NCBI GenBank assembly: GCA_015488275.1
Contig: WFOD01000033.1
Coordinates: forward strand, 1 to 39,230
Direction of reading: 5' to 3'
Source of the DNA: Deltaproteobacteria bacterium
GTDB taxonomy: Bacteria; Desulfobacterota; Desulfobulbia; Desulfobulbales; S012-135
Length of the DNA: 39,230 nt
How positions within the stretch are numbered: the first letter of the stretch is position 1; each line of letters starts with the position of its first letter. Both the position numbers and the translations under genes were made by a program. Shown piece by piece: positions 8,991-29,402 of the stretch. Below the pieces are notes generated by a model. The model was given only the letters and a program-made list of their open reading frames with translations, was not told where the DNA came from and did not search any database.

Positions 8991-9066
8991 GGGCGGATAG
9001 CTCAGCTGGGAGAGCATCGGCCTTACAAGCCGGGGGTCACAGGTTCGAGCCCTGTTCCGCCCACCA
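8991..9066 (+). tRNA. tRNA-Val (anticodon TAC)
   Basis: GGGCGGA/TCCGCCC acceptor, TAGCTCAGCTGGGAGAGC D-arm, CTTACAA anticodon loop, ACAGGTTCGAGCCCTGT T-arm, ACCA. Confidence 0.97.
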
Positions 9067-9108
9067 CCGTTTCCCCCAGGGGTTTCGAAACCCCTCTTAC
9101 ATATTTGC

Positions 9109-9186
9109 GGGGTCGTAGTTCAGTTTGGTTAGAACGCCGGCCTGTCACGCCGGAGGTCGCGAGTTCGAGTCTCGTCGGCCCCGCCA
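9109..9186 (+). tRNA. tRNA-Asp (anticodon GTC)
   Basis: GGGGTCG/CGGCCCC acceptor, GCCGG-CCTGTCA-CGCCGG anticodon arm, GCGAGTTCGAGTCTCGT T-arm, GCCA. Confidence 0.97.
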
Positions 9187-9367: not shown

Positions 9368-9452
9368 AAGAGATCCACTCGCACCCTCGGGAATCGCGGT
9401 GGGAAGTCTTCTGGAGGCTAACACCGGCCGGGGGCAACGTTGTTTTGAGGTC

Positions 9453-11690
9453 ATGCCCTTGCCCGCAAGCCGCCTGCGATCCTCTACGTCTTGCTTTGTC
9501 TGGCTGCTTTGTTCCGTGGGCGTGGCCGTGCTTCTTTGTTCTGCCCCCGCCTTGCCCGCCCCTGGCTACCAGCCGGATCTCTCCTTGTCGCTCACTCCCA
9601 GGTTCGAGGGGGCTCGCTCCAACCAAGCGGGAACTCCCGCCTCCACTGCTCTGTCCCCCAGCGGGCAAGACTCATTTCTCCTTGCGCCCGGCGCATCCGA
9701 CGGTCCCCTGGAGCCGGACAGTGGGTGGTGGGAGCGGATGGAGGCCTTCCGTAGCCAGGTGCGGAGCCTGCTCCGGCGGGAACGGTTCGTGCTCGAACGG
9801 GCCGGCGGCCGGTACGGTCTCCTCGGCGCCCTGTTCGCCTTCGAGTGCGCGAGCCCCAGGCCAGATCTTCGGCGGCGTGAGTCCTTGGCCGCGCAGGAAG
9901 CTTTCCAACTGGCTGACATTGGCCTTGCAATGGAGGCTGGGGTTGAGGACGCTTCCGGCCGGGCGGTGGATGACGGCCTCAGTGCGTGGGCCGGCCTGTC
10001 GTGGGATCTTCTGAACCGCGGCTTGCGGGAGAACCGCAGCCGGGCGGAGAGGTTACGGCTGCGCCGTGCCGTGGATGCGCTCAAGGCTCAGGGGCGCCGG
10101 AACGTGGAGTTGTACGAGTGCCGGGATGACGCCTTGCTCCGGCACTTTCTCCTCTTACGGCGCCAAGAGCTCGACCGGCGGCAGGAGATCCTGCAGCAGT
10201 TCCGGGCGTTCGTCCGCCAGGCCTATTTCACTGGAGAGGAGCTCCTCGATCCTCTCTTGCGGATCGAAGGGGCCCTCTATGCGGTCAAGTCCCGTTTGAC
10301 GGACACCGAACTGCTCGTGGACCGTCTTCCCGTTTTGCCTGGAGCGGGAGAGAGCGAGCCGCCGTTGTTGGCCCTCGACATCGATCAGCTCCAGCGGGCG
10401 GCCGCGGCCCGGAGCCGTGACGCCTTGCTCTCCCGGCTCCAGGAGCGCATCGTCGATCTGGAGTACGATGCGCTCGACGATGTTACCCTCCGGCTGTACG
10501 CCAGGGCCGGGATCGATGCGGACAACGGTGATGAGCACATGGTTGACGACCGGGTGGCCGTCGGGCTCCGCTTTCGCGCGCCTATCACCTGGAGGAACTA
10601 CGATCAGATGCGGCTGGCGGCGAAACGTACCCTTGCCGCCAAGGCCGCGCTGGAGCGGCAGCGCCGGGTCCTTGAGATGACCCGGCGGGTGCACGCCTAT
10701 CGCGAGAAACTCCAGGACGCCTTTCGTCTGCTCCATACCCGGCAAGTGATTGCCGAGCGGCTGCGGCGCTCGCTGTTGCTGCTGGAAGAGAACCGGACGG
10801 GCCGCGCGAACCTGCGCGTGCTTCGCGATATGCTCCAACAGTTGGACGAATACTATGACAACCGCGCCGAGACCCTGGCGGTGAAGGAGGCCCTATACCG
10901 GCGGTTGCTCTTGCTCTTCACTGATCTTGGGATCACACCGGAACCCCGTTTCTTCCGCGCCGCCAACAGTGGCCTCCCCTACGCCCGCGCCCGCCTGGGC
11001 CATCGGGGCGTCTATCTCTGGAGTTCAGCGATCAACAAGTTGGAGCCGGAGGATATCGTCTGGTTCTGCGTCACCAAGAGTATTGATCGCGTTTTTGTCT
11101 CCCTGGGCCGCCGGACGGATGACGAGCGGCTGGCGGCGCTGCTCAAGCGTTGCCGGGAGCAAGGGATCCAGGTGGTGCCGATGGCCAGCAATACCGCCTG
11201 GATCGAGCCGGCTTCCAGACCCGCCATCCAACGTTTTTTCGACCGGTTGCCGCCGGAGACCAAGCTTGTGCACCTGGATATCGAGCCGCAGACCAGGCCC
11301 GATTTCCGGCAACGGCGGCAGGAGTATCACCGGCGCTACGTGGCGATGCTCGCCTGGATCGCCGAACATAAACCTGCGGGCGTCGCTGTGGATATCGCCG
11401 CGCCGGTTTGGTGGAGCGCTGAAGAGGTGGCGGCCGTGGCGCCGTATGCCGATTCCTTGACGGTGATGGCCTATGGCACGAGGGACGCCGAACGGCTGCG
11501 GCAGCGCCTCGCGTCCTTTGCCGCCGTGGAGCCCCGGCGGATAGCCGTGGCCCTTCGGCCTACCGACTTTCAAGACGAAGCCGAGCTCGAAAGATTCGTT
11601 GACCGGTTGGTGGCCATTAGCCCGTACCGCCGCTTCCTCTTTCATGATTTCGCTCGCTATCTCTCGCTCATTGGAGCCTCCATGCCATGA
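9453..11690 (+). CDS. TolC-like outer-membrane channel protein fused to a C-terminal glycoside-hydrolase-like TIM barrel
   Basis: Signal peptide; long alpha-helical/coiled-coil region with TolC-type features (LTPRFEG..., VAVGLRFRAPITWRNYDQMRLAAKRTLAAKAALERQRR). The C-terminal ~230 aa contain VHLDIEPQ and YADSLTVMAYG, resembling GH18-type barrels. The ORF opens at GTG 9399; ATG 9453 precedes the signal peptide. Confidence 0.75.
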   Translation: MPLPASRLRSSTSCFVWLLCSVGVAVLLCSAPALPAPGYQPDLSLSLTPRFEGARSNQAGTPASTALSPSGQDSFLLAPGASDGPLEPDSGWWERMEAFRSQVRSLLRRERFVLERAGGRYGLLGALFAFECASPRPDLRRRESLAAQEAFQLADIGLAMEAGVEDASGRAVDDGLSAWAGLSWDLLNRGLRENRSRAERLRLRRAVDALKAQGRRNVELYECRDDALLRHFLLLRRQELDRRQEILQQFRAFVRQAYFTGEELLDPLLRIEGALYAVKSRLTDTELLVDRLPVLPGAGESEPPLLALDIDQLQRAAAARSRDALLSRLQERIVDLEYDALDDVTLRLYARAGIDADNGDEHMVDDRVAVGLRFRAPITWRNYDQMRLAAKRTLAAKAALERQRRVLEMTRRVHAYREKLQDAFRLLHTRQVIAERLRRSLLLLEENRTGRANLRVLRDMLQQLDEYYDNRAETLAVKEALYRRLLLLFTDLGITPEPRFFRAANSGLPYARARLGHRGVYLWSSAINKLEPEDIVWFCVTKSIDRVFVSLGRRTDDERLAALLKRCREQGIQVVPMASNTAWIEPASRPAIQRFFDRLPPETKLVHLDIEPQTRPDFRQRRQEYHRRYVAMLAWIAEHKPAGVAVDIAAPVWWSAEEVAAVAPYADSLTVMAYGTRDAERLRQRLASFAAVEPRRIAVALRPTDFQDEAELERFVDRLVAISPYRRFLFHDFARYLSLIGASMP

Positions 11691-12934
11691 AGATCCACAA
11701 TCGCCACAGCCACTTCACCACCGTGCCCGAGGCGCCGACGCCAAAACGGCGGCGGTTTTCGGTCTCCCGCGCCCTTTATCTTCTATTTCTCACCAGTATC
11801 CTGTTGTATCTCTTGTTTCTTGCGGGCAGGGCGGCCCTTTTCCTTTCTGCCCGTGGCTATGTGATGGTGGAGGGAGACCGGCTGCTTCAGGCCGAGGTCG
11901 CCGGCCGGGTCATCGAAATCGCGGCCCAACGGGATGACATGGTGCGCAAGGGGCAAGTGCTCGTCCGGTTACGGCCTGCGGCCGGCGGAAGAGCCGATCT
12001 CACGCCTTCCACCTCCTTGTTGCGCGAGCGTCTCCGAGCCCGGCGAGAGCTTGAGCTGGCCAAGAGCGAGCTTGCGAGCGTCCGGCGGGAGCTGCGGGCC
12101 TCTCAAGGGCTCTCCGTAGACCGCCTGCTTGCCGGCAAGAGTGTTGCGGTGCTGCCCGATGCGCTCGAACGCGCCCGCCTTGATTATTTGCAGCGGCAGG
12201 CGCGGTTGGCGGCCGCCGAGGAGGCATTGCGCCAGTGGGAGGATGCTGCGTCGGCGGCTGGGGCGAAAGCGCGGCGCCGCCGGGTGTACGAACTCGAAGC
12301 CTTGCCTGTGACGGCGCGTTCGGCCCCGGCCAGCGGTACGTGGCAACGCTTGACGGTCGAGGTTGAAGCCAATCGCAACCTTCTTGCCGTCCAGCGCCAG
12401 CGGATCGTCCGGCTCCTTGACGAGCATCGTCGTCGGCTGGCGGGCGAGGTGCAACGTCTCAAGGCCGAGCTCGCGGCCAGGTCCACTTATCTCCGTGGGG
12501 TGCAAGAGATCGTCACAGGAGGTGAGAGCGCCGGAGGCCAAGGTGGCCGTATCTTGCTGATAACAGCGCCGACTGACGGGAGGTTGGAGGAAGTTTTTGT
12601 CACGCCGGATATGGTGATCGAGCGTGGCCGTTCGCTCGTCCTTCTGCGGCCCGCCAACACACGGGTGCGGATCGACGCCTTTTTCAAACTCTCAGCCCTG
12701 GATAGGTTGGAGGAGGGGAAGAGGGCTTGGATTCGCTTTCCGGATGGAAGCAGGGGCAAAGGCGTGGTGCAGCGGGTCCTGTCCACGGCCCGCACCGTGC
12801 CTCGTCCCGAGTACAAGGATTATATGCCGCTTTGGGTGCGGAGCGACGTGGTGATCGTGCCTGAGAACGCGGCCGAGGCGGCCCACTGGCGGCGCTACGA
12901 ACAGATGGATGTCAAGGTGAGGATACGACGGTGA
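11687..12934 (+). CDS. HlyD-family periplasmic adaptor (membrane fusion protein)
   Basis: N-terminal TM; biotinyl-lipoyl-like halves (EVAGRVIEIAAQRDDMVRKGQVLVRLRP; ITAPTDGRLEEVFVTPDMVIERGRSLVLL) flanking a coiled coil. ATGA overlap with the upstream gene. Confidence 0.85.
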   Translation: MKIHNRHSHFTTVPEAPTPKRRRFSVSRALYLLFLTSILLYLLFLAGRAALFLSARGYVMVEGDRLLQAEVAGRVIEIAAQRDDMVRKGQVLVRLRPAAGGRADLTPSTSLLRERLRARRELELAKSELASVRRELRASQGLSVDRLLAGKSVAVLPDALERARLDYLQRQARLAAAEEALRQWEDAASAAGAKARRRRVYELEALPVTARSAPASGTWQRLTVEVEANRNLLAVQRQRIVRLLDEHRRRLAGEVQRLKAELAARSTYLRGVQEIVTGGESAGGQGGRILLITAPTDGRLEEVFVTPDMVIERGRSLVLLRPANTRVRIDAFFKLSALDRLEEGKRAWIRFPDGSRGKGVVQRVLSTARTVPRPEYKDYMPLWVRSDVVIVPENAAEAAHWRRYEQMDVKVRIRR

Positions 12935-14331
12935 AGTCTTGGGTGGTGGTGACAGAAAACGGCGATCATGGAGTCGCTGCCCACTTCGGCGGGCAGGCCC
13001 TGGCCCTTGCCCAGCTCGATATGTTGGAGCCTGCCCCCGGCCTGGTGATCGTAGCGCTCGGGCTCGACGAGCAGGGGGTGCTCGCCCTGTGCCGCGGCAT
13101 TCGCATGCGGCCGGAGCCACGCTGCTATCTTGCCCCCATCGTGGCCGTTGACCGCTATCTCCCGCAGCGGCCCGAGCTGGCCTCCACGGTGGACCTCCTC
13201 CTGGAATCTCCGCTCTCTTCTGCTGCCACCCAGACCGAGATCGAACGGGTCGCGGACCCTATCCTCCACGCGATCGACGGGCTTCCAGAGGTTGGTCGCG
13301 ACGCCAATGTCGGGGCCAAGGTTCTCCGTTATCTTTGGAGCCGCAACCTGGAACTCGTGCCGCAGCCAAGCAGCGGGAACGTGCGGGGCTACGTCTATCC
13401 GCCGGTGGAGCCGTTTTTCGACCGGAGCGACGAGTCGGCCTTTCAGGTGCTCGATTTCCTGGAGGCCGAGCACCTGGTGCGTGGCGAGTTCGTCGATCAC
13501 GTGCACCTGTGCCATTTTTGCGGCAGCGCCTTTCTCAACTTTGTGGAAACCTGTCCGCAGTGCGAGGGGAAGGATCTGGAACGTGACGATCTCGTCCATC
13601 ATTTCCCCTGCGGTTATATGGGCAATAGCCGAGAGTTCGGCGGAGACGGCCGCGATAAGATCTGCCCCAAGTGCGGCGAGCGGCTTCGGGGACTCGGTAC
13701 GGATTACGACAAGCCCTCCCTCGTCTATTCCTGCCGCTCCTGCCGGCACGTGTTCCAGGAGCCGGAGATCGCCACCCTTTGCTACAACTGCCGTCGGCCC
13801 GGCCGCCCCGAGGACCTGGTCGAGCGGGACGTGAAACGCTACGCGCTTACCGCCCTGGGAGAGCACAGCGCGGTCCACGGTCTCGACGCTCTCTTTCACC
13901 GTCTCTTGGATGAACGCCTCCACTTGGTGGACATGGAGACCTTCAAGCTCTTTCTCCAGGTGGAAGCGGCGCGTATCCGCCGCTACAAGATCTCGACTTC
14001 GACCGTCGCCCTGTTGGAACTCCCTGGCCTGCAGCATCTGTACGCCCGGTTCGGCAGCCGCGCCCGGGAGGTTTTTGGAGAGTTCGCCTCCATTCTCAAA
14101 GGGGTGCTGCGCATGACCGACATTGTCGCCTCGCTCAGCGATACGGCCTTTTTGATCCTGCTGGTCGAGACGCCGAGTGAAGGGGCCGAGGTGGCCATGC
14201 GGCGGCTTCGGGAAGAGGCCGGGCGAGTCTTTGCCGACGAGGCCGAGGTGGCCGCCACCCTGCGGACCAAAATCGTGCCGGTGGATCCTGAAGCGGACCC
14301 TGAATCCTGCATTGAGGCCCTTCTCGCCTGA
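12931..14331 (+). CDS. Zinc-ribbon (TackOD1-like) protein with C-terminal degenerate GGDEF domain
   Basis: CHFCGS..CPQC / FPCGYMG / KICPKCGERLRGLGTDYDKPSLVYSCRSCRHVFQEPEIATLCYNC. C-terminal GGDEF-like fold with RMTD-IVASL-SDTAF in place of RxxD-x5-GGDEF. GTG start overlapping the hlyD-like stop. Confidence 0.75.
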   Translation: MKSWVVVTENGDHGVAAHFGGQALALAQLDMLEPAPGLVIVALGLDEQGVLALCRGIRMRPEPRCYLAPIVAVDRYLPQRPELASTVDLLLESPLSSAATQTEIERVADPILHAIDGLPEVGRDANVGAKVLRYLWSRNLELVPQPSSGNVRGYVYPPVEPFFDRSDESAFQVLDFLEAEHLVRGEFVDHVHLCHFCGSAFLNFVETCPQCEGKDLERDDLVHHFPCGYMGNSREFGGDGRDKICPKCGERLRGLGTDYDKPSLVYSCRSCRHVFQEPEIATLCYNCRRPGRPEDLVERDVKRYALTALGEHSAVHGLDALFHRLLDERLHLVDMETFKLFLQVEAARIRRYKISTSTVALLELPGLQHLYARFGSRAREVFGEFASILKGVLRMTDIVASLSDTAFLILLVETPSEGAEVAMRRLREEAGRVFADEAEVAATLRTKIVPVDPEADPESCIEALLA

Positions 14332-14339
14332 GGAGTGTC

Positions 14340-15671
14340 ATGGAGCTGCTCCACGAGCTGTTCGCCGAGGTCGTGTTTTTCTTCCAAGAGCGCTCCTGGC
14401 AGCAGCTTGTTGTTTTTTTTTGGTATTTCATCATTTTCGACTTCACGCGCTACGTGCTCATGGATATCGTCTTCGTGCCGTGGTACCTCTGGCGGCGGCG
14501 CAGACAGCGGCCGCTCAGGGCGTTGGCCCGGCGCCGGTTGTTTCGCGATCGCCCGCTCGTCTCTGTCCTGGTGCCGGGCAAAAACGAAGGACGCCATTTG
14601 CCGCTCCTGGCCGAATCCCTTCAGACCCAGACCTATCCCCACATTGAACTTATCGTGGTGGACGACGGATCGGATGACGACACGCCCGAGATCTGCCGCC
14701 GGCTCCAAAGGGAAGGCTTGATCGATAAGTTCTTCCGGAACTCGCAGCGGGGCGGGAAAGCGTCCGCCGCCAACCTTGGCCTGCGGTACGCCCAGGGAAA
14801 GTATATTGTCCATCTCGACGCCGACTCTCATCTGCGGCCCGACTCCATCGAGCAAATTCTCATCCCTTTTTTTCTTGATGAGCGCACCGGCGCAGTTGGG
14901 GGCGACATTCGGGTCGCCAACGTGATGGACTCCCTGGCGACCACCCTTCAGGCCATCGACTACGTCAAGTCGATTTCCACCGGTCGGGTGATCTACTCCA
15001 TGCTTGGCATCCTGCGGATCGTCTCCGGCGCCTATGGCGCCTTCAGGACCGATATCCTACGCCGGATCGGGGGATGGGACGTGGGGCCGGGACTGGATGG
15101 CGACATTACCTTGCGGATCCGTAAACTCGGCTTTCGGATCGTGCACGAGGCAGAGGCCGTTTGCTATACTAACGTACCGGATTCATTTAAAAAACTTGCA
15201 CGGCAACGGTACCGTTGGGACCGTTCACTGGTCCGGTTTAGGATCCGGAAACACAGAGATCTCTTTGATTGGAGTAATGCGCATTTTGATATGCTTAATT
15301 TTTTAACGGTTGTTGATAATGTTTTTTTTAATTTTGTTCTTAATATAAAATGGTGGGTATATGTCGTACAGATATTATTTTTTTATCATGAATTTGTTCG
15401 TGTTGTTCTTCCTGTTAACTACATGATATATTTCTTGGCGAATGTCGTCGAGTTCAGCTTGGCGATGATTTTGTTTGGTAACACTTTACGCCGCTCGGAC
15501 AAGCTTCTGTTTCTTTATCTTCCTCTCGTTCCGCTCTATGTTGGGGTCTACCTTCGTTTTGTGCGCACCTTCGCTCATCTTATGGAGCTTTTTTTTCGGG
15601 CTTCCTATTACGATCCCTGGAATCCCTGGAAGGTCTCCAGGGTGAGAAAAGTGGAAGATGAGCTACGGTGA
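14340..15671 (+). CDS. Membrane family-2 glycosyltransferase (PgaC/cellulose-synthase-like)
   Basis: VSVLVPGKNEGRHLPLLAESL, VVDDGSDDDTPEI, HLDADSHL, processive-type QRYRW motif, multiple C-terminal TM segments. Confidence 0.9.
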   Translation: MELLHELFAEVVFFFQERSWQQLVVFFWYFIIFDFTRYVLMDIVFVPWYLWRRRRQRPLRALARRRLFRDRPLVSVLVPGKNEGRHLPLLAESLQTQTYPHIELIVVDDGSDDDTPEICRRLQREGLIDKFFRNSQRGGKASAANLGLRYAQGKYIVHLDADSHLRPDSIEQILIPFFLDERTGAVGGDIRVANVMDSLATTLQAIDYVKSISTGRVIYSMLGILRIVSGAYGAFRTDILRRIGGWDVGPGLDGDITLRIRKLGFRIVHEAEAVCYTNVPDSFKKLARQRYRWDRSLVRFRIRKHRDLFDWSNAHFDMLNFLTVVDNVFFNFVLNIKWWVYVVQILFFYHEFVRVVLPVNYMIYFLANVVEFSLAMILFGNTLRRSDKLLFLYLPLVPLYVGVYLRFVRTFAHLMELFFRASYYDPWNPWKVSRVRKVEDELR

Positions 15672-17231
15672 ATGCCTGTCGTTCCGTTGGGCTCCGGTCT
15701 CCGTGGCCGTGGGCGGCGGCGGTTGCAACGCCTGAAAGGTGTATCGGGCCGTGGCCTTGTGGGCGGCGGTGAGGGCCGCCTGCGACCAGGGGTGGAGAGA
15801 GTCGTCCGTCTCACCCCAGAAGATACGGACCAACTCGTCGGCGCGCAACCGGTCGCCCGTGGTGGCCGGGACAAAGGCCTCCTCCTCCCCTTCGTCGGTC
15901 CGGCGCAAGAGGCCGGCGGCGTGCAGCCGCTCGACCACGGAACGCACCTCTTGGCTGTTGACGCCCAGCCGCTCCTCAAGGAGGGATTGGGTGACGGTGC
16001 GGCGGTCGGCGAAGGCGGCGAGCGCCTCTGTCATCACCTGGATGGCGGTGTCGAGGATACGGACAGGGGAGAGGTGCGGCGCCGTAAGCCGGTAGTGATA
16101 GGTGCGCCAGGTCTGGCAGGCAAAGGCCACCTCGGCGCCGGCCAAAAACACCAGCCAGCCAGAATAAATCCAGAGCAGGAAGAGGGGCAGGCTGGCGAAG
16201 GAGCCGTAGATCGCGTTGTAACGGGCCACGCCGATCTGCAGCGAGACGTAGAGCCCCTGGAGGAGCAGCCAGCCGCCCCCGCCCGCCAGGCCGCCGATGA
16301 CGGCGGGAAAGAGGCGCACGCGAGTGTTGGGCAGGAAGCGGTACATGATGGTGAAGGTGCCGGCTACCAGCAAGAGCGGCAGGAGGGTGAGCAGCAGGTG
16401 TTGGAGCCAGGCCAGGGGCAGGATCTGTTGCAGGCGGCCGAGAAGGACCGGGGTCTTGAGGGTGGTTTCCGTGGCCAGGGCCAGGTTGACGGCCAGGGGC
16501 AGGAGCACGGTGAGGGCCAGGTAGTCGATGACCTTGCGGCCCAGGGGCCGGGTGCTGGCCGACTGCCAGATGGCGTTCATCGCCCGTTCGATATTGCCGA
16601 GCAGGGAAAGGACGGTGAAGAGCAGACCGGCGATGCCAAAGGCGCCAAGGGTGGCGAAGTTGGTGCGGTCCACGTAGTCGAAGACCGTGTCTGCCGCTTG
16701 CCGGAGGTGATCGGTGAGCGAGGCGCCGTTCTCGCGGGCGGCCGGTTGCTGTTGGTCTGCGCCCGGAGCGGCCCCGCCCGCAGAGGCGGGCGGCGGCAGG
16801 GCGACGGTATCGGGCGCGGGCAGGGCCCGGCCGGTTTCCTCCATCTGTTCGATGAAGCGGTAGGCGGCCTGCCGCATCTGATCCCCGGCGCCGAGTCCTT
16901 TGAGCACCGCGGTGCCGAGCGCCAGGGTGGGGACAAGGGAGAGGACCGCGGTGAAGGTGAGGGCGCTGGCCCGCAGAGTCAGGCGATCGCGCCTGCTCTC
17001 CCGGATGGTGATGAGCCAAATCCGGCACAGGGCATGGGCTAGCCGGCGCCAGCCCTGTTCGTTGTCGGCGAGTGGCCGCCAGAGCCAGGCGATGAATCGG
17101 GTGCGGCGGTCAGCAATGGTGCGCTGCCAGTGGGTCAGGGAAAGCATAGCCTTGTGCCAAAGCGAAAAGATTTGCAGTAAGGGGGCGATGCCTTGCAAAT
17201 CCTGGGCATGGAGGTAGAATGCCGGCTCCAT
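15663..17231 (-). CDS. YihY/BrkB-family (UPF0761) inner-membrane protein
   Basis: RDRLTLRASALTFTAVLSLVPTLALGTAVLKGLG; MYRFLPNTRVRLFPAVIGGLAGGGGWLLLQGLYVSLQIGVARYNAIYGSFASLPLFLLWIYSGWLVFLAGAEVAFA. The actual start may be internal. Confidence 0.9.
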   Translation of the reverse strand: MEPAFYLHAQDLQGIAPLLQIFSLWHKAMLSLTHWQRTIADRRTRFIAWLWRPLADNEQGWRRLAHALCRIWLITIRESRRDRLTLRASALTFTAVLSLVPTLALGTAVLKGLGAGDQMRQAAYRFIEQMEETGRALPAPDTVALPPPASAGGAAPGADQQQPAARENGASLTDHLRQAADTVFDYVDRTNFATLGAFGIAGLLFTVLSLLGNIERAMNAIWQSASTRPLGRKVIDYLALTVLLPLAVNLALATETTLKTPVLLGRLQQILPLAWLQHLLLTLLPLLLVAGTFTIMYRFLPNTRVRLFPAVIGGLAGGGGWLLLQGLYVSLQIGVARYNAIYGSFASLPLFLLWIYSGWLVFLAGAEVAFACQTWRTYHYRLTAPHLSPVRILDTAIQVMTEALAAFADRRTVTQSLLEERLGVNSQEVRSVVERLHAAGLLRRTDEGEEEAFVPATTGDRLRADELVRIFWGETDDSLHPWSQAALTAAHKATARYTFQALQPPPPTATETGAQRNDRHSP

Positions 17232-17760
17232 GCCCGACGAACCGCCCGATACCGCCGCCTTGCGCGAGGCGATCTGCGCCCAGGCCGAGACCCTTACCGT
17301 CTCCGCCCGGGAGATCGTCCGCCATTTTCAGGTACTCAGAAGCGCTCGCGCCCCGCGGTTGATGATGGACGCGCCCGGCCTGTTCTATCCCGATCTCGAT
17401 CTGTACGTGATCTCCAAGGCCGGTGCCCACCGGGGCCATGCGGTGTTGTATACCATGATCGCTCCCCTCTTGCCCACGGGGCGGTTTCCGGCCTACGGGT
17501 TTGTCCTCTATCCAGAGAGCTATGTCCGTTCCTGCCTCGATCGCCTGTTGCGCAAGACCGTGCGGCCGGTCTGCGCGGAGATGCGCGTCTCTTTGGAAAA
17601 CGTGTTCAACAAAAAATACCATCCTGGGGAATCTCTAACCGATGGACCGGTGCTCCGGTCCCTGATCGCCCTCTTACGCGCGGATCTCGGTCTTAGCAGC
17701 CCGTTGAAAAATGGGCTGTGTGCGGCACAGGGACGTGCCGCCGAATTCCGCCGGCTCTGA
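17230..17760 (+). CDS. Conserved-type hypothetical protein; last ~21 residues are encoded by repeat copy B
   Basis: ORF with no assigned family; its C-terminus SPLKNGLCAAQGRAAEFRRL* is translated from the mobile repeat. Confidence 0.6.
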   Translation: MPDEPPDTAALREAICAQAETLTVSAREIVRHFQVLRSARAPRLMMDAPGLFYPDLDLYVISKAGAHRGHAVLYTMIAPLLPTGRFPAYGFVLYPESYVRSCLDRLLRKTVRPVCAEMRVSLENVFNKKYHPGESLTDGPVLRSLIALLRADLGLSSPLKNGLCAAQGRAAEFRRL

Positions 17761-17852
17761 AAGAGCCAAGGAATTCGTGAGGTTGGCCGGAACTCGGTTT
17801 TGGCCAACCGTGGTAGAAAAAGTCAGGGATGACTTTTTCGACGGGCTGTTAG
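17693..17852 (+). repeat. Copy B: full-length 152-bp MITE-like palindromic element with TTAG direct repeats
   Basis: TTAG-CAGCCCGTTGAAAAA...TTTTTCGACGGGCTG-TTAG: terminal inverted repeats enclosing a series of hairpins. Confidence 0.9.
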
Positions 17853-19771
17853 CTGCCCGCTACTGACCTCCATTGGGTGTAGAGCGCTTCGAGATCCCGG
17901 CAGAAGCCGGCCTCGTCGCGCAGGGGGGAGTTCTCGAACCGTTGGCGCAGGGCGGGCGTGTCCTGACGCACAGCGCTGACCGCCTGCGCCAGGCGGCGGA
18001 CAATGGCCCGGTATTCTTCCTGATCATGGGCGATCCACTGCGTCTGTCCGACAGCGGTCAATAGCGAGGCGCCCACTCGGCCGGCGTGGCAAGCGTCCGC
18101 CAGGGTGACCACGGGCGTGCCCATCCACAGGGCCTCGCAGGTTGTGGTCGTGCCGTTGTACGGAAAGGTGTCCAGGGCGATGTCGATTTCCCGGTAAAAG
18201 GCAAGATGGTCCGCCGCCCGCGGCCGGAAGCCGGTGAGCCGCACCCGTTGCCCGGCGTTTGTTACCCCCCGGCTGGCAAAGGCGTTGAGGGTCGCGGCGC
18301 GCACCCCTGGATCGTCCAGGGAGCGGTTCTTGAGCAGCAGGCGGCTGTCGGGCAACTCGCGGAGGAGTGTTGCCCAGCAGTCGAGCACCGTATCGGTGAT
18401 CTTGGCGATGGTGCTGCAGGAGCCAAGAACCGCCGGCCCTGAGAGGGTTTTGCGCGCATCGATGTCGGCTGGCGGCCGAAAGCAGAGAAAGGCGCGGTCC
18501 ATCCGGGCCGGCGTTTCGCTCATGCGGCTGGGGAGATGGGGCGGATCGGCCGTGATGTCGGTGATGCGGTAGTCAACGGTTGGCAGGCCCGTGGTATCCG
18601 GATAGCCAAGCCAGGTGGCCTGGACAGGGGCTGCCCGCCGGGCCAGGAGGGCGAGGCGGTTGCCTTGGGTATGGCCGGCGAGATCGACGAGGATATCGAT
18701 GCGGTCGGCGGCGATCAGGCGGGCGGCGCTTTCGTCGTCCAGGCCGGCAATGGTGCGGAAGCCGTTTGCCAGGGAAGCGAGACGGGCGGTGATGCTGTCA
18801 TGGTGGTGCGTGGTGGCGTAACAAAACACGGCAAACCGCCGGCGATCGTGATGTTCCAGCACTGGTTCGAGGAACGAGGCCACGGGATGGCGGCGCAGGT
18901 CGCCGGACAGATAGCCGACGCGGATACGGGCGTCGTGTCTGGCGCCTGCGGGAGGGTGGCCGTTTGCCAGGGTGGTTCTTCCGGCCTTTGCCATGAGGGC
19001 GGCGCCAAAGCGCTGGTGTTCGGTGAACAGGGATTCTGGATCATCGCACTGGTAGTGCAGGGCCAGGAGCAGATTGCTGTGGAGCCAGGTGCCTGGGCCG
19101 CCCAGGGCGACAGCCTGTTGGTAGGCGGCCACGGCCTCGGACAACCGGCGGCTGTCGCGCAAGACGTTTCCCAGGTTGTTCAAGATGCGTGGGTCAGAGG
19201 GTGCCAAGGAGCGCGCTTTCTCGAGGGTCGCCCGGGCGGCGGTGAGCTCGCCGTTCAGGTGCTGGGCCGTGGCGAGCCCGAGAAGGAATCCCGGGTCTGC
19301 CGGCTCCCGCCGCACCGCCTGGCGGTGAGCGGCGAGCGCGCCAGGATAGTCCCCCATATCTCGCAAGAGGTTGCCCAAGTGATGGTGGGCCATTGCCTGG
19401 TCCGGCGCCAGGCGCACGGCCTGTTCGTAGCAACGGCGGGCGGCGGGCAAGTCGCCGGCCTGCCGGTGGAGGTTGCCGAGGTTGATCCAGGCTGCTGTCT
19501 GCTTTGGGGCCAAACGGAGAATGGCCTCCAACTGGCGGCGGGCCTCGTCGGGCTTGCCGCACCGCCGGTAGGCCACGGCCAGGTTGTTCCGGGCCTCCAC
19601 GTCCTCGGGCCGCCGGCGCACCAATTCCCGGAGGCAGCGGACGGCTGCGGGCCAGCGCTGCTGGCGGAGATGGGTCAGGGCCTCCTGTTGCAACCGTTGC
19701 TCCCTTTCTCCCTTGGAGGTGGATGCGGCCCTTTGCTGCCGGCGCTGCTTGCGGAAGCGGCGGAGGCGCAT
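17849..19771 (-). CDS. TPR-repeat GT41 (O-GlcNAc transferase/SPINDLY-like) glycosyltransferase
   Basis: N-terminal TPR repeats; RIRVGYLSGDLRRHPVASFLEPVLEHHDRRRF, DILVDLAGHTQGNRLALLARRAAPVQATWLGYPDTTGLPTVDYRITD, IALDTFPYNGTTTTCEALWMGTPVVTL. Confidence 0.93.
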   Translation of the reverse strand: MRLRRFRKQRRQQRAASTSKGEREQRLQQEALTHLRQQRWPAAVRCLRELVRRRPEDVEARNNLAVAYRRCGKPDEARRQLEAILRLAPKQTAAWINLGNLHRQAGDLPAARRCYEQAVRLAPDQAMAHHHLGNLLRDMGDYPGALAAHRQAVRREPADPGFLLGLATAQHLNGELTAARATLEKARSLAPSDPRILNNLGNVLRDSRRLSEAVAAYQQAVALGGPGTWLHSNLLLALHYQCDDPESLFTEHQRFGAALMAKAGRTTLANGHPPAGARHDARIRVGYLSGDLRRHPVASFLEPVLEHHDRRRFAVFCYATTHHHDSITARLASLANGFRTIAGLDDESAARLIAADRIDILVDLAGHTQGNRLALLARRAAPVQATWLGYPDTTGLPTVDYRITDITADPPHLPSRMSETPARMDRAFLCFRPPADIDARKTLSGPAVLGSCSTIAKITDTVLDCWATLLRELPDSRLLLKNRSLDDPGVRAATLNAFASRGVTNAGQRVRLTGFRPRAADHLAFYREIDIALDTFPYNGTTTTCEALWMGTPVVTLADACHAGRVGASLLTAVGQTQWIAHDQEEYRAIVRRLAQAVSAVRQDTPALRQRFENSPLRDEAGFCRDLEALYTQWRSVAGS

Positions 19772-22155: not shown

Positions 22156-22938
22156 TTACTGGTGTTTGCGGATGACGAGGCGCCAGGCGCCGTCGGGCAG
22201 TTGCCGGCGCTCGAGGATCGCGTGCCCTTCTTTTTCCACTGACTGGGGCACGTTTCTGATCGGCGGCCCGTCGTCGAGCACCACCTCGAGGTGCTGCCCC
22301 GGCTCGATGGCGGCCAGCGCCACCTTGACTTTGACCAGGTTCATTGGGCAGCCAACGCCGTGCAGATCAATGGCGCGGTGGATGGTCGCGGCCGTCTTGT
22401 CCTCTTGTGCCGGAGCGCCTGACATGGAGGAGGAGCCGCCGGGGAGGCTTGCGCCCTCCACCACGAGATCCAATTCGGTCACCGTTTGCTTGCGGATGCG
22501 AAAGGCGCGCACCGGTTTCTCTTCTCCTGGAAGCAGGGTAACGATGAGGTAAAGAAGGTCGGGATCGTGCGCCAGGCGGATATCTTCTGGCGACGGCCGG
22601 GCTGGGGAGGCCGGATGGCTGTGGTACACGCCGGCCAGGCGCAAGCCCTGCGACCGGATCGCCTTGACCACGGCGAACTGTTCGGCCGGATCCAGGGTGT
22701 AATGGTCTTCGGCCTTGTCTGCGTTGGTCATGGGAAAGGCGGCGCAGATACGGCCCTCGGCATCCTTGGCCAGGTAGCCGCACGCCTCGATGGGCGCCTC
22801 CCGTTGGGCGTGGGCGGCCATTTCTGCGTAAGCTTCCTGGGTGAGGCGCACGGGATCGCCGCCAGAATTTTCCTGCGCAACAGTTGCGGAGGATGGGGCC
22901 GGTCGGGGTATGGAGGGGACGGTTTGTGCGGTGTGCAT
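22156..22938 (-). CDS. JAMM/Mec+ metalloprotease fused to a TusA-like sulfur-transfer domain
   Basis: EACGYL...VYHSHPASPARPSPEDIRLA (HxH-x7-SxxD JAMM motif); C-terminal DLHGVGCPMNLVKVKVALAAIEPGQHLEVVLDDGPPIRNVPQSVEKEGH (TusA CP motif). Confidence 0.88.
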   Translation of the reverse strand: MHTAQTVPSIPRPAPSSATVAQENSGGDPVRLTQEAYAEMAAHAQREAPIEACGYLAKDAEGRICAAFPMTNADKAEDHYTLDPAEQFAVVKAIRSQGLRLAGVYHSHPASPARPSPEDIRLAHDPDLLYLIVTLLPGEEKPVRAFRIRKQTVTELDLVVEGASLPGGSSSMSGAPAQEDKTAATIHRAIDLHGVGCPMNLVKVKVALAAIEPGQHLEVVLDDGPPIRNVPQSVEKEGHAILERRQLPDGAWRLVIRKHQ

Positions 22939-22971: not shown

Positions 22972-23775
22972 TCAGGCGGCGCAGAGGATCGGGCCGCAGT
23001 CGGTCACCTCGGTGATACTCGGCTCCTTACCGCAAACCGGACAGTTGTCTTGCCGTTGGAGCGGTGTGCTTCGAAAACGCATGGCCAGGGCGTCGAAGGA
23101 GAGCAGCCGGTTGGTGAGCAACTCCCCGGCCCCGGTGAGGAACTTGAGTGCCTCGGCGGCTTGGATGGTGCCGAGCATCCCGGCCACAGCGCCCAGCACG
23201 CCGGCCTGGGAGCAGGAGGGCACAGCGTCCGGTGGCGGCGGCTCCCGGAAGACGCACCGGTAACACGCGCTCTTGCCTGGCAGCACGGTCATCGTCTGGC
23301 CGGTGAAACGCAGGATGCCGCCGTGGGAAAACGGCACGCCTTCGAGCAGACAGGCGTCGTTGACCAGGAATTTGGTGGGAAAGTTGTCCGCACCGTCGAT
23401 CACAAAATCGTACTGGCGCACCAACTGGCGCACGTTGCTGGCGTCAAGAAAGCAGTGGTGTGTAGTGACCTGGACTTCAGGGTTGATCGCCCGCATGGCG
23501 CGAGCCGCTGACTCCACCTTGGGCTGGCCGATGTCTGCGGTGGTGTGGGCGATCTGCCGCTGCAAGTTGGAGCGGTCCACGGTGTCGTTGTCCACGATCC
23601 CCACCACGCCGACGCCGGCCGCGGCCAGATAGAGGGCCACCGGCGATCCGAGACCGCCGGCCCCAACCACCAGCACCCGCCCATCCATGAGCCGTTCCTG
23701 GCCCTCAACGCCCACTTCGGCGAGAAGGATGTGGCGGCTGTACCGTTCAAGCTGCTCTTCGGTGAACTCTCTCAT
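22972..23775 (-). CDS. ThiF/MoeB/HesA-family E1-like adenylyltransferase
   Basis: ERYSRHILLAEVGVEGQERLMDGRVLVVGAGGLGSPVALYLAAAGVGVVGIVDNDTVDRSNLQRQIAH. Confidence 0.93.
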   Translation of the reverse strand: MREFTEEQLERYSRHILLAEVGVEGQERLMDGRVLVVGAGGLGSPVALYLAAAGVGVVGIVDNDTVDRSNLQRQIAHTTADIGQPKVESAARAMRAINPEVQVTTHHCFLDASNVRQLVRQYDFVIDGADNFPTKFLVNDACLLEGVPFSHGGILRFTGQTMTVLPGKSACYRCVFREPPPPDAVPSCSQAGVLGAVAGMLGTIQAAEALKFLTGAGELLTNRLLSFDALAMRFRSTPLQRQDNCPVCGKEPSITEVTDCGPILCAA

Positions 23776-24642: not shown

Positions 24643-24833
24643 GGCCCGGTTGTACCCTAGGGGAGTCGGCTGGTCAAGGGGGATTCTGGCCGCGGCCGGG
24701 ACTGGCGCAACAGGAAAAAAACACATTTTGATTTTCCTGGTTCGCTATAATTGGGAAAACATCGAAGAGGCTCCAGAGAGTTGCCGGATTCCTGCAAGTG
24801 TCATTTGCGGTGCAAAAGGTACGAAAGATACTG

Positions 24834-27800
24834 ATGAGCGTTTTCCTGTCGCCCAGGACGCGGAAGGGCGGTTGGCTCGCGCGCGGCGGTCGGGCAGGCG
24901 GCTTCGTGCCGATCTTCCTGCTGTTGTTGCTCCTGCCCACGGCCGCGCTCCGGGTCCAAGCCCAAGGGGAAGCGCCGCAGCCGGGAGACCGTTCCGTGAT
25001 CCGCCTGGCGGCTCCTGCCCTTGACGAGGAGGAGCGGCGTTTTCTCCAAGAGCATCCTGTCATCCGTATCGGCGTCGATCCTGACTATCCCCCTTTTGAC
25101 CGTCTCGCCGCTGACGGGCGCTACGAAGGCATGGGCGCGGACTATTGCCGCCTGGTGGCCGAGCGGTTGGGCGTGCGGTTCAAGGTGGTCCAGGGGCTCG
25201 ACTGGCAGGGCGCGCTTGCCGGGATTCGCGCCGGCGAGGTGGACATGATCCCTGTCATAACGCCGACGCCAGAGCGGCGGGAGTACCTGCTCTTCACCCA
25301 GAGCTATCTCCATTATCCTCTTGTTATCGTCACCAGGAAGGGCGCTTCTCCGGTGACAGGGCTTCACGACTTCATAGGCCGCCGTCTGGGGGTGGTGCGC
25401 GGCTACGCCACGGCCGAGGTCTTGCGGGAGCGCTTTCCCCAGATCGAGCCCTACGAGGTCCCCAACGTGCTGGCCGGCTTGCTGGCCGTGTCCACCGGCC
25501 AAGTGGGAGGTTTTCTCACCGACCTGGCGGTCGCCCTTTATCTGGCCGAGGAACATGCGATCACCAATGTAAAGCCCGCCGCGCCGGCCGGCATCCGGCA
25601 GCCGGGTTTCAGCATGGGGGTGCGGCGGGACTGGCCGCTTCTGGTCTCCATTCTCGACAAGGCCTTGGCCTCCATTTCTCCTGAGGAGCATCGGCGGATC
25701 CGCCAGCGCTGGCTGGGGGATGAGGAGGTCATCGACAAGATGGAGCAGGAGGTCTTGCGCCTCTCCGCAGAGGAGGAGCGGTGGCTGCAAGAGCATCCCA
25801 CGCTCCGGCTCGGGGTGGATCCCGCGTGGCCGCCGTTTGAGTTCTTCGACCAGGCCGGGGTGTACAGCGGCATCGCCGCTGATTACGTCGCCGCCCTTTC
25901 CGACCGGTTGGGCGTGCGCATGACGCCTGTTCCTGGACTTTCGTGGAGCGAAGTGCTGGAGCGGGCCGCCAAGCGGGAGATCGACCTCTTGCCCTGCATC
26001 ACCAGGACCCCGGCCCGTAGCCGTTACCTCCTTTTCACCCGTCCGTATCTCGATCTGCCGATGATCATTGTTACCCGCAGCGATTATCCGTTGGTCAGCG
26101 GCATCAGCGATTTTGCCGACGGCCGGCTCGCCGTGGTGCGGAATTATGTCAGCCATGAACTGCTCCAGCGCGACTATCCCCAAAAAAGGCTTCTTTTGCT
26201 GGAGTCCATTGACGCCGGGCTCGAGGCGGTGGTCGAAGGCCGGGCGGACGGCTTCATCGGTAACATCGCGGCGGTCTCCTACGCCACCGAGCGTTTAGGG
26301 ATGAACGGTCTCAAGGTGGCGGCCGCCACGCCCTATCGTTTTACCTTGGCGATGGCGGTGCGAGACGATTGGCCTGAGTTGGTGGCGATACTTGACCGGG
26401 CCCTGGCCGCCATCCCTAAGGAAGAAAAAGAGCGTTTTTACCAAACCTGGACCAGGGTGCGCGTGGAGCGACGCGTGGATTGGCGGGCCATGCGCCGGAT
26501 CGCCCTGGCCATCGGCGGTGTGGCCCTGCTGCTCATCGGCGCAAGCCTCTACTGGACCAGGCGGTTGGCGGCAGAGGTGAGGGTCCGGCGGCGGGCCGAA
26601 GCCGAACTGCTCAAGCTCACGCGGGCGGTGGAGTTTTCACCCGCCTCGGTGGTGATCACCGATCGCCAGGGCACAATCGAATACGTGAACCCCGCCTTTA
26701 CCGAGGTCACCGGCTACGCCCCCGGCGAGGTGCTCGGGCAAACCCCCAGAATCCTCAAATCGGGACGGCAGGACGAGGCGTTCTACGCCGATCTATGGCA
26801 GACCATCCTCGCTGGCCGGGTATGGCGCGGCGATTTCTGCAACCGCAAGAAGGATGGCAGCGAGTTTTGGGAGTCGGCGGCCATAGCGCCCATTATCGAC
26901 GAGTCTGGCGCGATCACCCACTTTGTGGCCGTCAAGGAGGACATCACCGAACGCAAGCGGGCGGAGGACGAACTGGCCAAGGCCAAGGAGCGGGCCGAGG
27001 CCGCCACCCGCGCCAAGAGTGAGTTCCTTGCCAACATGAGCCATGAGATCCGCACGCCGATGAACGCTATCCTCGGCATGTGTCACCTCTGCTTGCAGAC
27101 CATGCTCTCCGACCGGCAGCGGGACTATTTGGAAAAAATCGAGTTTTCGGCCCGTTCGCTTTTGCGCATCCTCGACGATATCCTTGATTTCTCAAAGATC
27201 GAGGCCGGCAAACTCTCGATGGAGCAAACTGAGTTCCTTCTTGCTGATGTCCTCTCCAACCTGCTCACCATGACCGCCTCGCAGGCCGAGGACAAGGGGC
27301 TTGAGTTTCTCGTCCGTCAGGATCCCGAGGTGCCCGAAGGCCTGGTCGGCGATCCCTTGCGCCTGACCCAGGTGCTGCTCAACCTGGTCAACAACGCCAT
27401 CAAGTTCACCGATCAGGGCGAGGTTGAGCTGGCCATCAGCGCCGAAGAGGTGGGCTCGTCCCAGGCCGTGCTCCGTTTCACGGTGCGCGATACCGGTATC
27501 GGCCTGTCCCCTGCGGAGCAGGAGCGGATCTTTGGCGCCTTTACCCAGGCCGACTCCTCCATCAGCCGGCGCTATGGCGGCACGGGCCTGGGGCTGGTGA
27601 TCTGCCGCCGGCTGGTGCAGATGATGGGGGGGGAGCTGTCGTTGCGCAGCGCCCCGGGACAGGGGGCCACCTTTAGCTTTACCGCGGTCTTTGGCCGGCA
27701 TGACCGGACAAAACGCAGGAGCACGGTGCCTGCTGGCCTGGCCGGAATGCGGGTTCTGGTGGTGGACGACAACGAGTCGGCCCGGCTCACCCTTGCCGAC

Positions 27801-29402
27801 ATGCTGCGCCGCATGGGCTTTGAGGTCCATCTTGCGGCGTCGGGTGGGGAGTGTCTGGCAGAGGTGATGCGGGCGGTGGAGGGCGAGGCGCCCTATGACC
27901 TCCTCTTGCTGGACTACCGCTTGGGAGATGGGGACGGCATTGCGGTTGCCCGACAGCTTCGGGAAAAGGTGGTCGAGGGCCGGCGGCCGCAGATCGTCAT
28001 GATCACTGCCTACGGCGGCGACGATGTGCGGGCCGCGGCCGCCGCTGTTGGCATCCACGCCTTTCTCGCCAAACCGGTGACGCCTTCGTCCTTGCTCGAC
28101 GCCATAGTCACTTCTCTCTGCCGCACAGAGCCTGACGCCGAGGTGTGCGCCTCCCTGGGGCCACGGTCCCAAGCCGTCCTGGCGCCAGGGTTGCGTGGCC
28201 GGCGGGTGTTGGTGGCCGAGGACAACGAGATCAACCGGCAAGTGGCGTCAGAGCTCCTTGCCTCGTGGGGGATGGAGGTGGAATGCGCGGCTGACGGCCG
28301 CGAGGCGGTGCGGTTGGCCTGCAAGCAGCGGTTCGATCTGGCGCTCATGGATATCCAGATGCCCGGAATGGACGGCCTTGCCGCCACCCGCCGCATCCGG
28401 GAGCAAGGCGGCCGTCTCGCCAGGATGCCCATCGTGGCCATGACGGCCCATGCAACCGAAGAGGCCAGGAGGCAATGCCTGGCCGCCGGGATGGACGCCC
28501 ATGTGGTCAAGCCCCTTGATCCGGATGGTTTGCAAGCGGTGTTGCTTGCACTGCTTGGCAACTCTAGCAGTCCGTCGAAAAAGCCATCCCTGGCTTTTTC
28601 GACTACGGTTGGCCAAAGCAGAGCTTCGGCCAACCTTACGAATTCCTTGGCTCTTTCAGAGCCGGTGGAATTCGGCGGCACGTCCCTGTGCCGCACACAG
28701 CCCGTTTTTCAACGGGCTGCTAGGGAGAAGGAGGCCGAGGAGAAGGCCGTTTTGCTCGATTCTGGGGCCGCCTTGCGGCGCTTGGCGGGTAATAGGCGGC
28801 TGTATCATCGTCTCCTTGCCGAGTTTGCGCGGGAACAGCGGGATGCTCCGCATAGGATACGCGCCGCCCTGGCGGCGGAGCGGGAGCGGGCCCGGCGGTT
28901 GGCCCACACCCTGAAGGGGGTGAGCGGCAATATCGGCGCAATGGCGGTGCACCTTCAGGCAAAAAAGGTGGAGGCGGCCATTGTCGAGGAGAACGATAGC
29001 GCTCTCGATCAGGCCCTGCGCGTCTTGCAGGAGATGCTGGCCGCGACCACAGCCGAGATTGCGCGTTATTCGGGAGCGGAAGCGGTGGCGGATCGCCCGG
29101 CAGAGACGGGGCAGGGCGGGGAGGAGGCCGGCGGCCTGCTGCAGGAGCTTGCGCGCCTCCAGCGGCTGGTCGAACTCCATGATCTGGAGGCGGAAGAGAC
29201 CTTTTTGCGCTTGGAGCCCCAGATGCAAAGACATTGCGCAAGCGAGTGCCAACGGCTGCGCCAGGCCCTTGCCCAGCTCGACTTTGCCGCCGCTGAGGCG
29301 ATCCTCAGGGAGATCGTTCTCCGCCAAACGGCGGAGGAAGCCAATCATCACCATCAGGAAGAAGAGGACATGTCCCATGAGCCAGCGGATTCTCATCGTT
29401 GA
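24834..29402 (+). CDS. BvgS-like hybrid sensor histidine kinase: 2x SBP_bac_3, TM, PAS, HisKA, HATPase_c, REC, REC, HPt
   Basis: Two tandem periplasmic binding domains ([16 protein letters not shown]..., [16 protein letters not shown]...), [77 protein letters not shown]. Confidence 0.94.
   Translation: [1522 protein letters not shown]
28564..28723 (-). repeat. Copy D: full-length 152-bp MITE-like element inside the hybrid kinase coding sequence, CTAG direct repeats
   Basis: CTAG-CAGTCCGTCGAAAAA...TTTTTCAACGGGCTG-CTAG; inverse orientation relative to copy B, ~12 mismatches over 152 aligned bp by eye, no indels. Confidence 0.93.

Follow-up and report, generated by a model that had tools for sequence, protein, structure and literature searches.

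What does a GGDEF domain do once its catalytic motif is gone, when the gene that carries it lies beside a polysaccharide synthase? The question is raised by a gene at position 12931 of a window of 39,230 nucleotides, the whole stretch of DNA analysed here, from a Deltaproteobacteria bacterium (contig WFOD01000033.1). Our answer, to which we give a probability of roughly 0.78, is that the product is a dead GGDEF protein turned c-di-GMP receptor, a regulatory subunit that gates the GT2 synthase of a four-gene exopolysaccharide system. The parts of the gene that bear on this are as follows.

12931 to 14331, plus strand: protein with receiver-like, TackOD1 and degenerate GGDEF regions, the proposed c-di-GMP receptor (466 aa, GTG start)
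12931 to 13305, plus strand: receiver-like (beta-alpha)5 N-terminal region, residues 1-125 (strand-helix order in the AlphaFold2 model)
13306 to 13848, plus strand: TackOD1 zinc-binding domain PF18551, residues 126-306 (Pfam E 1e-49)
13906 to 14328, plus strand: degenerate GGDEF domain, residues 326-466 (PF00990, Foldseek and DgcR profile)
13981 to 13983, plus strand: R351, probable secondary I-site arginine, near WspR R198 / PleD R313 (conservation and hand alignment)
14110 to 14121, plus strand: primary I-site RxxD, R394-M-T-D397 (sequence, conservation and DgcR register)
14137 to 14151, plus strand: SDTAF in place of GG(D/E)EF, S403-F407 (sequence; GG(D/E)EF is absent from homologues)
14203 to 14205, plus strand: R425, third primary I-site arginine, the PelD R402 / PleD R390 equivalent (conservation and DgcR alignment)

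The AlphaFold2 model of the protein, built with 71 homologues as input, has a mean pLDDT of 91.2 and a pTM of 0.80, and a segment scan found no hydrophobic or membrane segment. Residues 1-125 have no receiver match in Pfam, therefore we only infer that this region is receiver-like. The original prediction concerned the GGDEF domain and overlooked the TackOD1 domain in front of it. Membership of the TackOD1 profile is supported by the match itself and by its CxxC set: in an alignment of 71 sequences the cysteines C194, C197, C208, C211, C227, C245, C248, C268, C284 and C287 are invariant and C271 is nearly so. This domain was named from archaeal response regulators and has been noted in some bacteria, and its function has been called obscure (PMC5847659). 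The GGDEF assignment of the C-terminus is based on several lines of evidence. PF00990 matches residues 337-429 with an E-value of 1.4e-5, which is over the Pfam cut-off, a profile match to DgcR (6zxm) reaches 5e-14, and Foldseek matches the C-terminus of the model to solved GGDEF domains, e.g. that of DosC with a TM-score of 0.73 over the target. Further matches include 3ign, GcbC and others crystallised with c-di-GMP. The best 50 Foldseek matches of the protein are mostly GGDEF domains of active cyclases; PelD is absent from these 50.

The reading of the motif itself holds up. Codon 394 begins at 14110 and codon 407 finishes at 14151, and the residues R394-F407 are RMTD-IVASL-SDTAF, as had been proposed. 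The RxxD (R394/D397) stands at the exact I-site spacing from the GG(D/E)EF position, five residues before S403, and the catalytic motif at that position is indeed lost. SDTAF has neither glycine of the motif, and the acidic metal and catalytic residues are missing too. A hand alignment to PleD places P365 at the metal position D329 and R379 at the guanine-binding D344. In the profile alignment to DgcR, R394 and D397 fall on the arginine and aspartate that were changed to alanine in the I-site mutants 6zxb and 6zxc, and R425 falls on the arginine of the DgcR ‘DRVRE’ segment; residue counting also places R425 at the position of PleD R390 and PelD R402. The hand mapping of R351 to WspR and PleD makes it a probable secondary I-site arginine, and is the least secure of these assignments.

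A bare RxxD is weak evidence for a receptor, because ordinary cyclases carry it too. Of 10 cyclases fetched from the host genome 9 were readable, and all 9 have an RxxD five residues before GG(D/E)EF. We have therefore rejected the argument from the motif in a single sequence. RxxD is the ancestral state among the cyclases of this genome, and a GGDEF domain that has decayed could simply have inherited it. What goes beyond this expectation is its retention across homologues that, judging by their alignment, have completely lost GG(D/E)EF.

In a first alignment of 16 sequences, R394 and D397 were among just 25 invariant columns. Scanning 84,980 species genomes then contributed 80 further loci, later searches added more, and 110 sequences were aligned in total. 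Judged by their record titles, they come from Desulfobacterota, Gamma- and Betaproteobacteria, Mariprofundaceae, Nitrospirota, Gemmatimonadota, Caldisericota, WOR-3, Omnitrophota and Bacteroidota/Balneolota; no homologues were found in viral contigs. GG(D/E)EF is absent from all 110, and the five residues in its place differ freely among homologues (NESVF, NESMF, SEQDL, PHREI etc.). A few members of the family have unusual settings. Four loci, L044-L046 (G046, G045 and G049) and L047 (G184), encode a TackOD1-GGDEF protein with R351, R394, D397 and R425 and without an adjoining GT2 operon; the neighbours include a CYTH protein in L046 and a DAHP synthase in L047. These proteins are possible stand-alone receptors. 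One Bacteroidota genome (G917, locus L148) has two TackOD1-GGDEF genes, approximately 15 kb apart and on opposite strands.

In order to relate the site to the messenger, PF00990 proteins were counted in operon-bearing genomes. Every non-Bacteroidota genome among them has PF00990 matches, from 2 to 79. The host genome has 18 at E <= 1e-5, and in one Omnitrophota MAG the match is weak (E 4.6e-15). The 51 Bacteroidota/Balneolota sequences are from genomes without GGDEF at threshold, one of which has a single weak match (2.4e-7), and EAL is absent from the 18 cyclase-less Bacteroidota/Balneolota genomes tested. The comparison is thus between 59 sequences from cyclase-bearing genomes and 51 from cyclase-less ones. 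The original prediction had staked itself in advance on the conservation of RxxD, and where c-di-GMP exists the homologues do keep it, with R394 and D397 present in 59 of 59. R351 is likewise found in 100% of these 59 sequences, R425 in 98% and T414 in 93%. Among the 51 cyclase-less sequences the corresponding values are 35% (R394), 96% (D397), 2% (R351), 4% (R425) and 16% (T414). The quartet R351/R394/D397/R425 is complete in 58/59 of the first set vs 0/51 of the second, while both sets retain the zinc cysteines and almost all of the other strongly conserved positions. L177 joins the decaying positions at a cut of 90% with three nested sequences, described below, held out. The cyclase-less sequences that keep R394 are mostly from Crocinitomicaceae; they have lost R351 and R425 (mostly to Q351 and E425), so the pocket differs in these proteins. 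Since D397 is retained in 96% of the cyclase-less sequences it is at least partly structural, and the 35% that retain R394 imply that this residue may have another role as well. Of the roughly 7 columns that are strongly conserved within the GGDEF domain, 4 decay in Bacteroidota, and a general relaxation of the domain in this group would give a partly similar pattern.

Does this pattern merely follow ancestry? A tree was built from the N-terminal and TackOD1 regions only. In this tree three sequences from cyclase-bearing genomes, from Nitrospirae (L076), Desulfuromonadales (L075) and WOR-3 (L086), are nested in the Bacteroidota clade (54 rows, SH-aLRT 98). These three share the signature of that clade at 22/24 residues, yet they keep R351, R394, R425 and T414; L177 they do not keep. 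As the nested members retain the arginines, the site tracks the presence of c-di-GMP and not ancestry. No fewer than 8 changes of R394 are needed on the tree, and wherever the residue is missing the genome is cyclase-less. With just 1-2 independent contrasts, formal phylogenetic significance cannot be claimed. A survey for Bacteroidota that have both the operon and cyclases covered 7 further genomes, all without GGDEF, and a search for cyclase-less Omnitrophota with the operon, as an independent contrast, gave one relative with the gene and none that was usable.

The genes around the receptor candidate point to a machine that makes and exports a polysaccharide. Its three partners in the window are the following.

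9399 to 11690, plus strand: TolC-like outer-membrane channel fused to a C-terminal GH18-like TIM barrel, 763 aa (AlphaFold2 and Foldseek)
11687 to 12934, plus strand: HlyD-type periplasmic adaptor, 415 aa (HlyD_3 PF13437, E 9.5e-9; one hydrophobic helix, residues 24-56)
14340 to 15671, plus strand: GT2 polysaccharide synthase, PgaC-like, 443 aa (PF00535, 6.5e-27; QRYRW motif and membrane segments)

The channel protein has no covering family in Pfam or NCBIfam, though its relatives have OEP matches in Pfam. In its AlphaFold2 model (pLDDT 82.6) a TolC-type protomer is followed by a TIM barrel. Foldseek assigns the model to the TolC/OprM family (1.6e-11) and matches the barrel to GH18 ENGases/chitinases and to the C-terminal domain of PgaB (4e-5 to 6e-4); a D627-x-E629 pair and M690/Y692 are invariant among relatives. 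At least 40 genomes with the operon conserve this apparent fusion of TolC and GH18 in a single polypeptide. The best NCBIfam match of the GT2 is PgaC_IcaA (1.8e-44). The score of 152 bits is far below the 422-bit cut-off of this curated equivalog, so the GT2 is not taken as a PgaC/IcaA (PNAG synthase) member. From the GT2 whose nearest relatives are PgaC/IcaA, together with the GH18/PgaB-like barrel and its D627-x-E629 pair, a polymer containing N-acetylhexosamine would be the most likely product of the operon. The claim that the synthase is without a PilZ domain is borne out, as none was found in the four operon proteins of the window or in the relatives scanned.

The arrangement is conserved. 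The four-gene operon was found in at least eight phyla, the GT2 synthase is the next gene downstream of the TackOD1-GGDEF gene (within 300 bases) in 91 of 97 loci, and the adaptor and channel genes lie upstream in most. For example, Thiodiazotropha-type symbionts (L048) and Crocinitomix (L094) have the same four genes in the order seen in the window. A promoter and terminator scan gave nothing beyond chance. Just upstream of the operon, at 8991-9186, are genes for tRNA-Val(tac) and tRNA-Asp(gtc); tRNA genes are a common place for horizontally acquired genes. Downstream, a 176-aa reading frame at 17230-17760 (plus strand) has no Pfam or NCBIfam match and is perhaps not a gene, and approximately 2 kb from the operon, at 17849-19771 (minus strand), is a TPR protein with a GT41 (O-GlcNAc-transferase-like) domain. 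Further along the window are a prokaryotic JAB domain fused to a TusA sulfurtransferase domain (22156-22938, minus strand), an adjoining reading frame that by eye resembles ThiF/MoeB (22972-23775, minus strand), and a hybrid histidine kinase of 1534 aa with two SBP_bac_3 sensor domains, a PAS domain, two receivers and an Hpt domain (24798-29402, plus strand).

How does this compare with the receptors and systems already described? The protein had been called PelD-like, after the Pel polysaccharide protein of Pseudomonas aeruginosa and Bacillus cereus, which stands as an analogy of mechanism and falls as a statement of membership. Both proteins have a degenerate GGDEF domain, are encoded in an exopolysaccharide synthase operon without PilZ, and have an RxxD followed by a third arginine some 31-35 residues on (R367/D370/R402 in PelD, R394/D397/R425 here). 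In PelD, the substitutions R367A, D370A and R402A each abolish c-di-GMP binding and pellicle formation (PMC2170427). The equivalent residues of Bacillus cereus PelD behave alike, and the intact domain binds with a KD of about 103 nM (PMC7112168). Ordinary PleD-like cyclases conserve the R402 equivalent far less well (PMC2170427), which makes the near-fixation of R425 a PelD-like, receptor-like feature. PelD, in contrast, has four membrane helices and a GAF domain and is part of the pel operon, whereas the protein studied here is soluble, is receiver-like with a zinc-binding TackOD1 domain, and belongs to an operon of outer-membrane channel, HlyD and GT2 genes. No GAF domain matched in Pfam at E<=1, and PelD membership is rejected on domain content and on the neighbours (channel/glycosidase, HlyD and GT2, not pel).

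BcsE, which regulates cellulose secretion in E. coli, is a second relevant case. It is a degenerate receiver-GGDEF tandem that binds c-di-GMP through R415/D418 (PMC7439463) and is, like the candidate, a cytosolic partner of a GT2 synthase. The shared features in our protein are the degenerate GGDEF domain and its I-site; a receiver-like fold is predicted from the order of secondary structures in the model. Unlike our protein, BcsE has a RecA-like domain at its N-terminus, and its partners are BcsRQF and a PilZ-bearing synthase; in our protein TackOD1 separates the receiver-like and GGDEF regions, and no PilZ was found. The BcsE family gave no match in Pfam or NCBIfam, bcs genes are not adjacent, and membership is rejected on domain content. 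The archaeal TackOD1 proteins share the Cys-rich PF18551 domain, which there is also found behind a receiver; the archaeal architectures listed differ in having no GGDEF (PMC5847659). The PgaABCD (PNAG) system is similar in its c-di-GMP control, which is proposed for the present system, in a GT2 nearest to PgaC/IcaA and in a TIM barrel glycosidase like the C-terminal domain of PgaB. It differs in that here a TolC-like channel and HlyD adaptor replace PgaA, PgaD is missing, and the proposed receptor is a separate protein. In the open-access literature searched we found no account of a bacterial TackOD1-GGDEF fusion or of this operon.

Several other explanations deserve consideration. The domain might have kept diguanylate cyclase activity despite its unusual active site, and there is some precedent, in that some degenerate motifs such as AGDEF are active (PMC3974145). 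Given that SDTAF lacks the glycines and acidic residues, that the PleD positions D329 and D344 are P365 and R379, and that no homologue has GG(D/E)EF at five freely varying positions, we regard this as extremely improbable and reject it. Alternatively, RxxD and R425 may be vestiges or structural residues of a scaffold that assembles the synthase complex without binding c-di-GMP. The high conservation of D397 even without cyclases, the commonness of RxxD in ordinary GGDEF domains, and the persistence of the operon and zinc domain in c-di-GMP-free Bacteroidota, which implies a c-di-GMP-independent role for the protein, all agree with such a scaffold. If these were vestiges, though, three arginines would not have remained at 98-100% in at least eight phyla while GG(D/E)EF and the positions around it were scrambled, and structural residues would not vanish only where c-di-GMP is missing and be kept by the nested cyclase-bearing members. 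We consider this explanation unlikely. There are also parallels elsewhere: in Campylobacter without active cyclases the degenerate GGDEF proteins have degenerate I-sites (PMC9239204), and in c-di-GMP-free streptococci PelD lacks the GGDEF domain altogether (PMC7112168).

The site could also bind a different nucleotide or an anion, which would explain why R394 survives in about a third of the cyclase-less sequences, mainly Crocinitomicaceae. The full quartet occurs in none of those sequences, which makes this improbable. A more delicate matter is what a bound ligand would do. The protein could hold c-di-GMP as a local store or delivery factor, or could control assembly, and not gate the GT2 directly. 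This idea overlaps with our own, as it is a sub-case of receptor function. Delivery of c-di-GMP by BcsE to the PilZ domain of BcsA is a published hypothesis (PMC7439463, PMC8461298), and the domain logic here is similar, with a degenerate receiver followed by a degenerate GGDEF domain. The side group L044-L046, which keeps the site without a GT2 neighbour, counts against our main reading. On the other hand, no PilZ or other second c-di-GMP site that could act as recipient was found in the operon, and we treat storage, delivery or assembly control as a tentative alternative.

The reading that we prefer remains a receptor that gates the synthase. A retained I-site next to a synthase, lost in relatives without the messenger, suggests a c-di-GMP switch of polysaccharide export. 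In such a switch, c-di-GMP made by other cyclases of the cell would be held in the former inhibitory site by R394, D397 and R425. It would probably bind there as an intercalated dimer, assisted by R351. The bound form may then alter the contact of the cytosolic TackOD1-GGDEF protein with the adjacent membrane GT2, and thereby turn polymer synthesis on. The polymer, presumably HexNAc-containing, would exit via the HlyD adaptor and the TolC-like channel, where the GH18-like barrel may trim it. The TackOD1 zinc domain is probably a scaffold or the surface that contacts the synthase. In Bacteroidota, which are without c-di-GMP, the operon has been kept while the binding site has decayed. There the protein must act without c-di-GMP, and is therefore also a structural part of the machine.

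More broadly, we lean towards the view that this is a widespread and apparently undescribed exopolysaccharide system, in which the TackOD1-GGDEF protein gates the synthase in users of c-di-GMP and the ligand site has been erased in Bacteroidota. Because the site is kept or lost according to the capacity for c-di-GMP, the family is a clean comparison for the gain and loss of a second-messenger input on a secretion machine. If our interpretation is correct, natural regulated and unregulated versions of the system would separate the regulatory part of the receptor from the essential machinery. The PelD/BcsE class of dead-GGDEF receptors would gain a third architecture, and the TackOD1 zinc domain its first testable bacterial role. 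Our interpretation would also point to a synthase-dependent polysaccharide system that Bacteroidota share with marine, sulfur-cycling and symbiotic bacteria.
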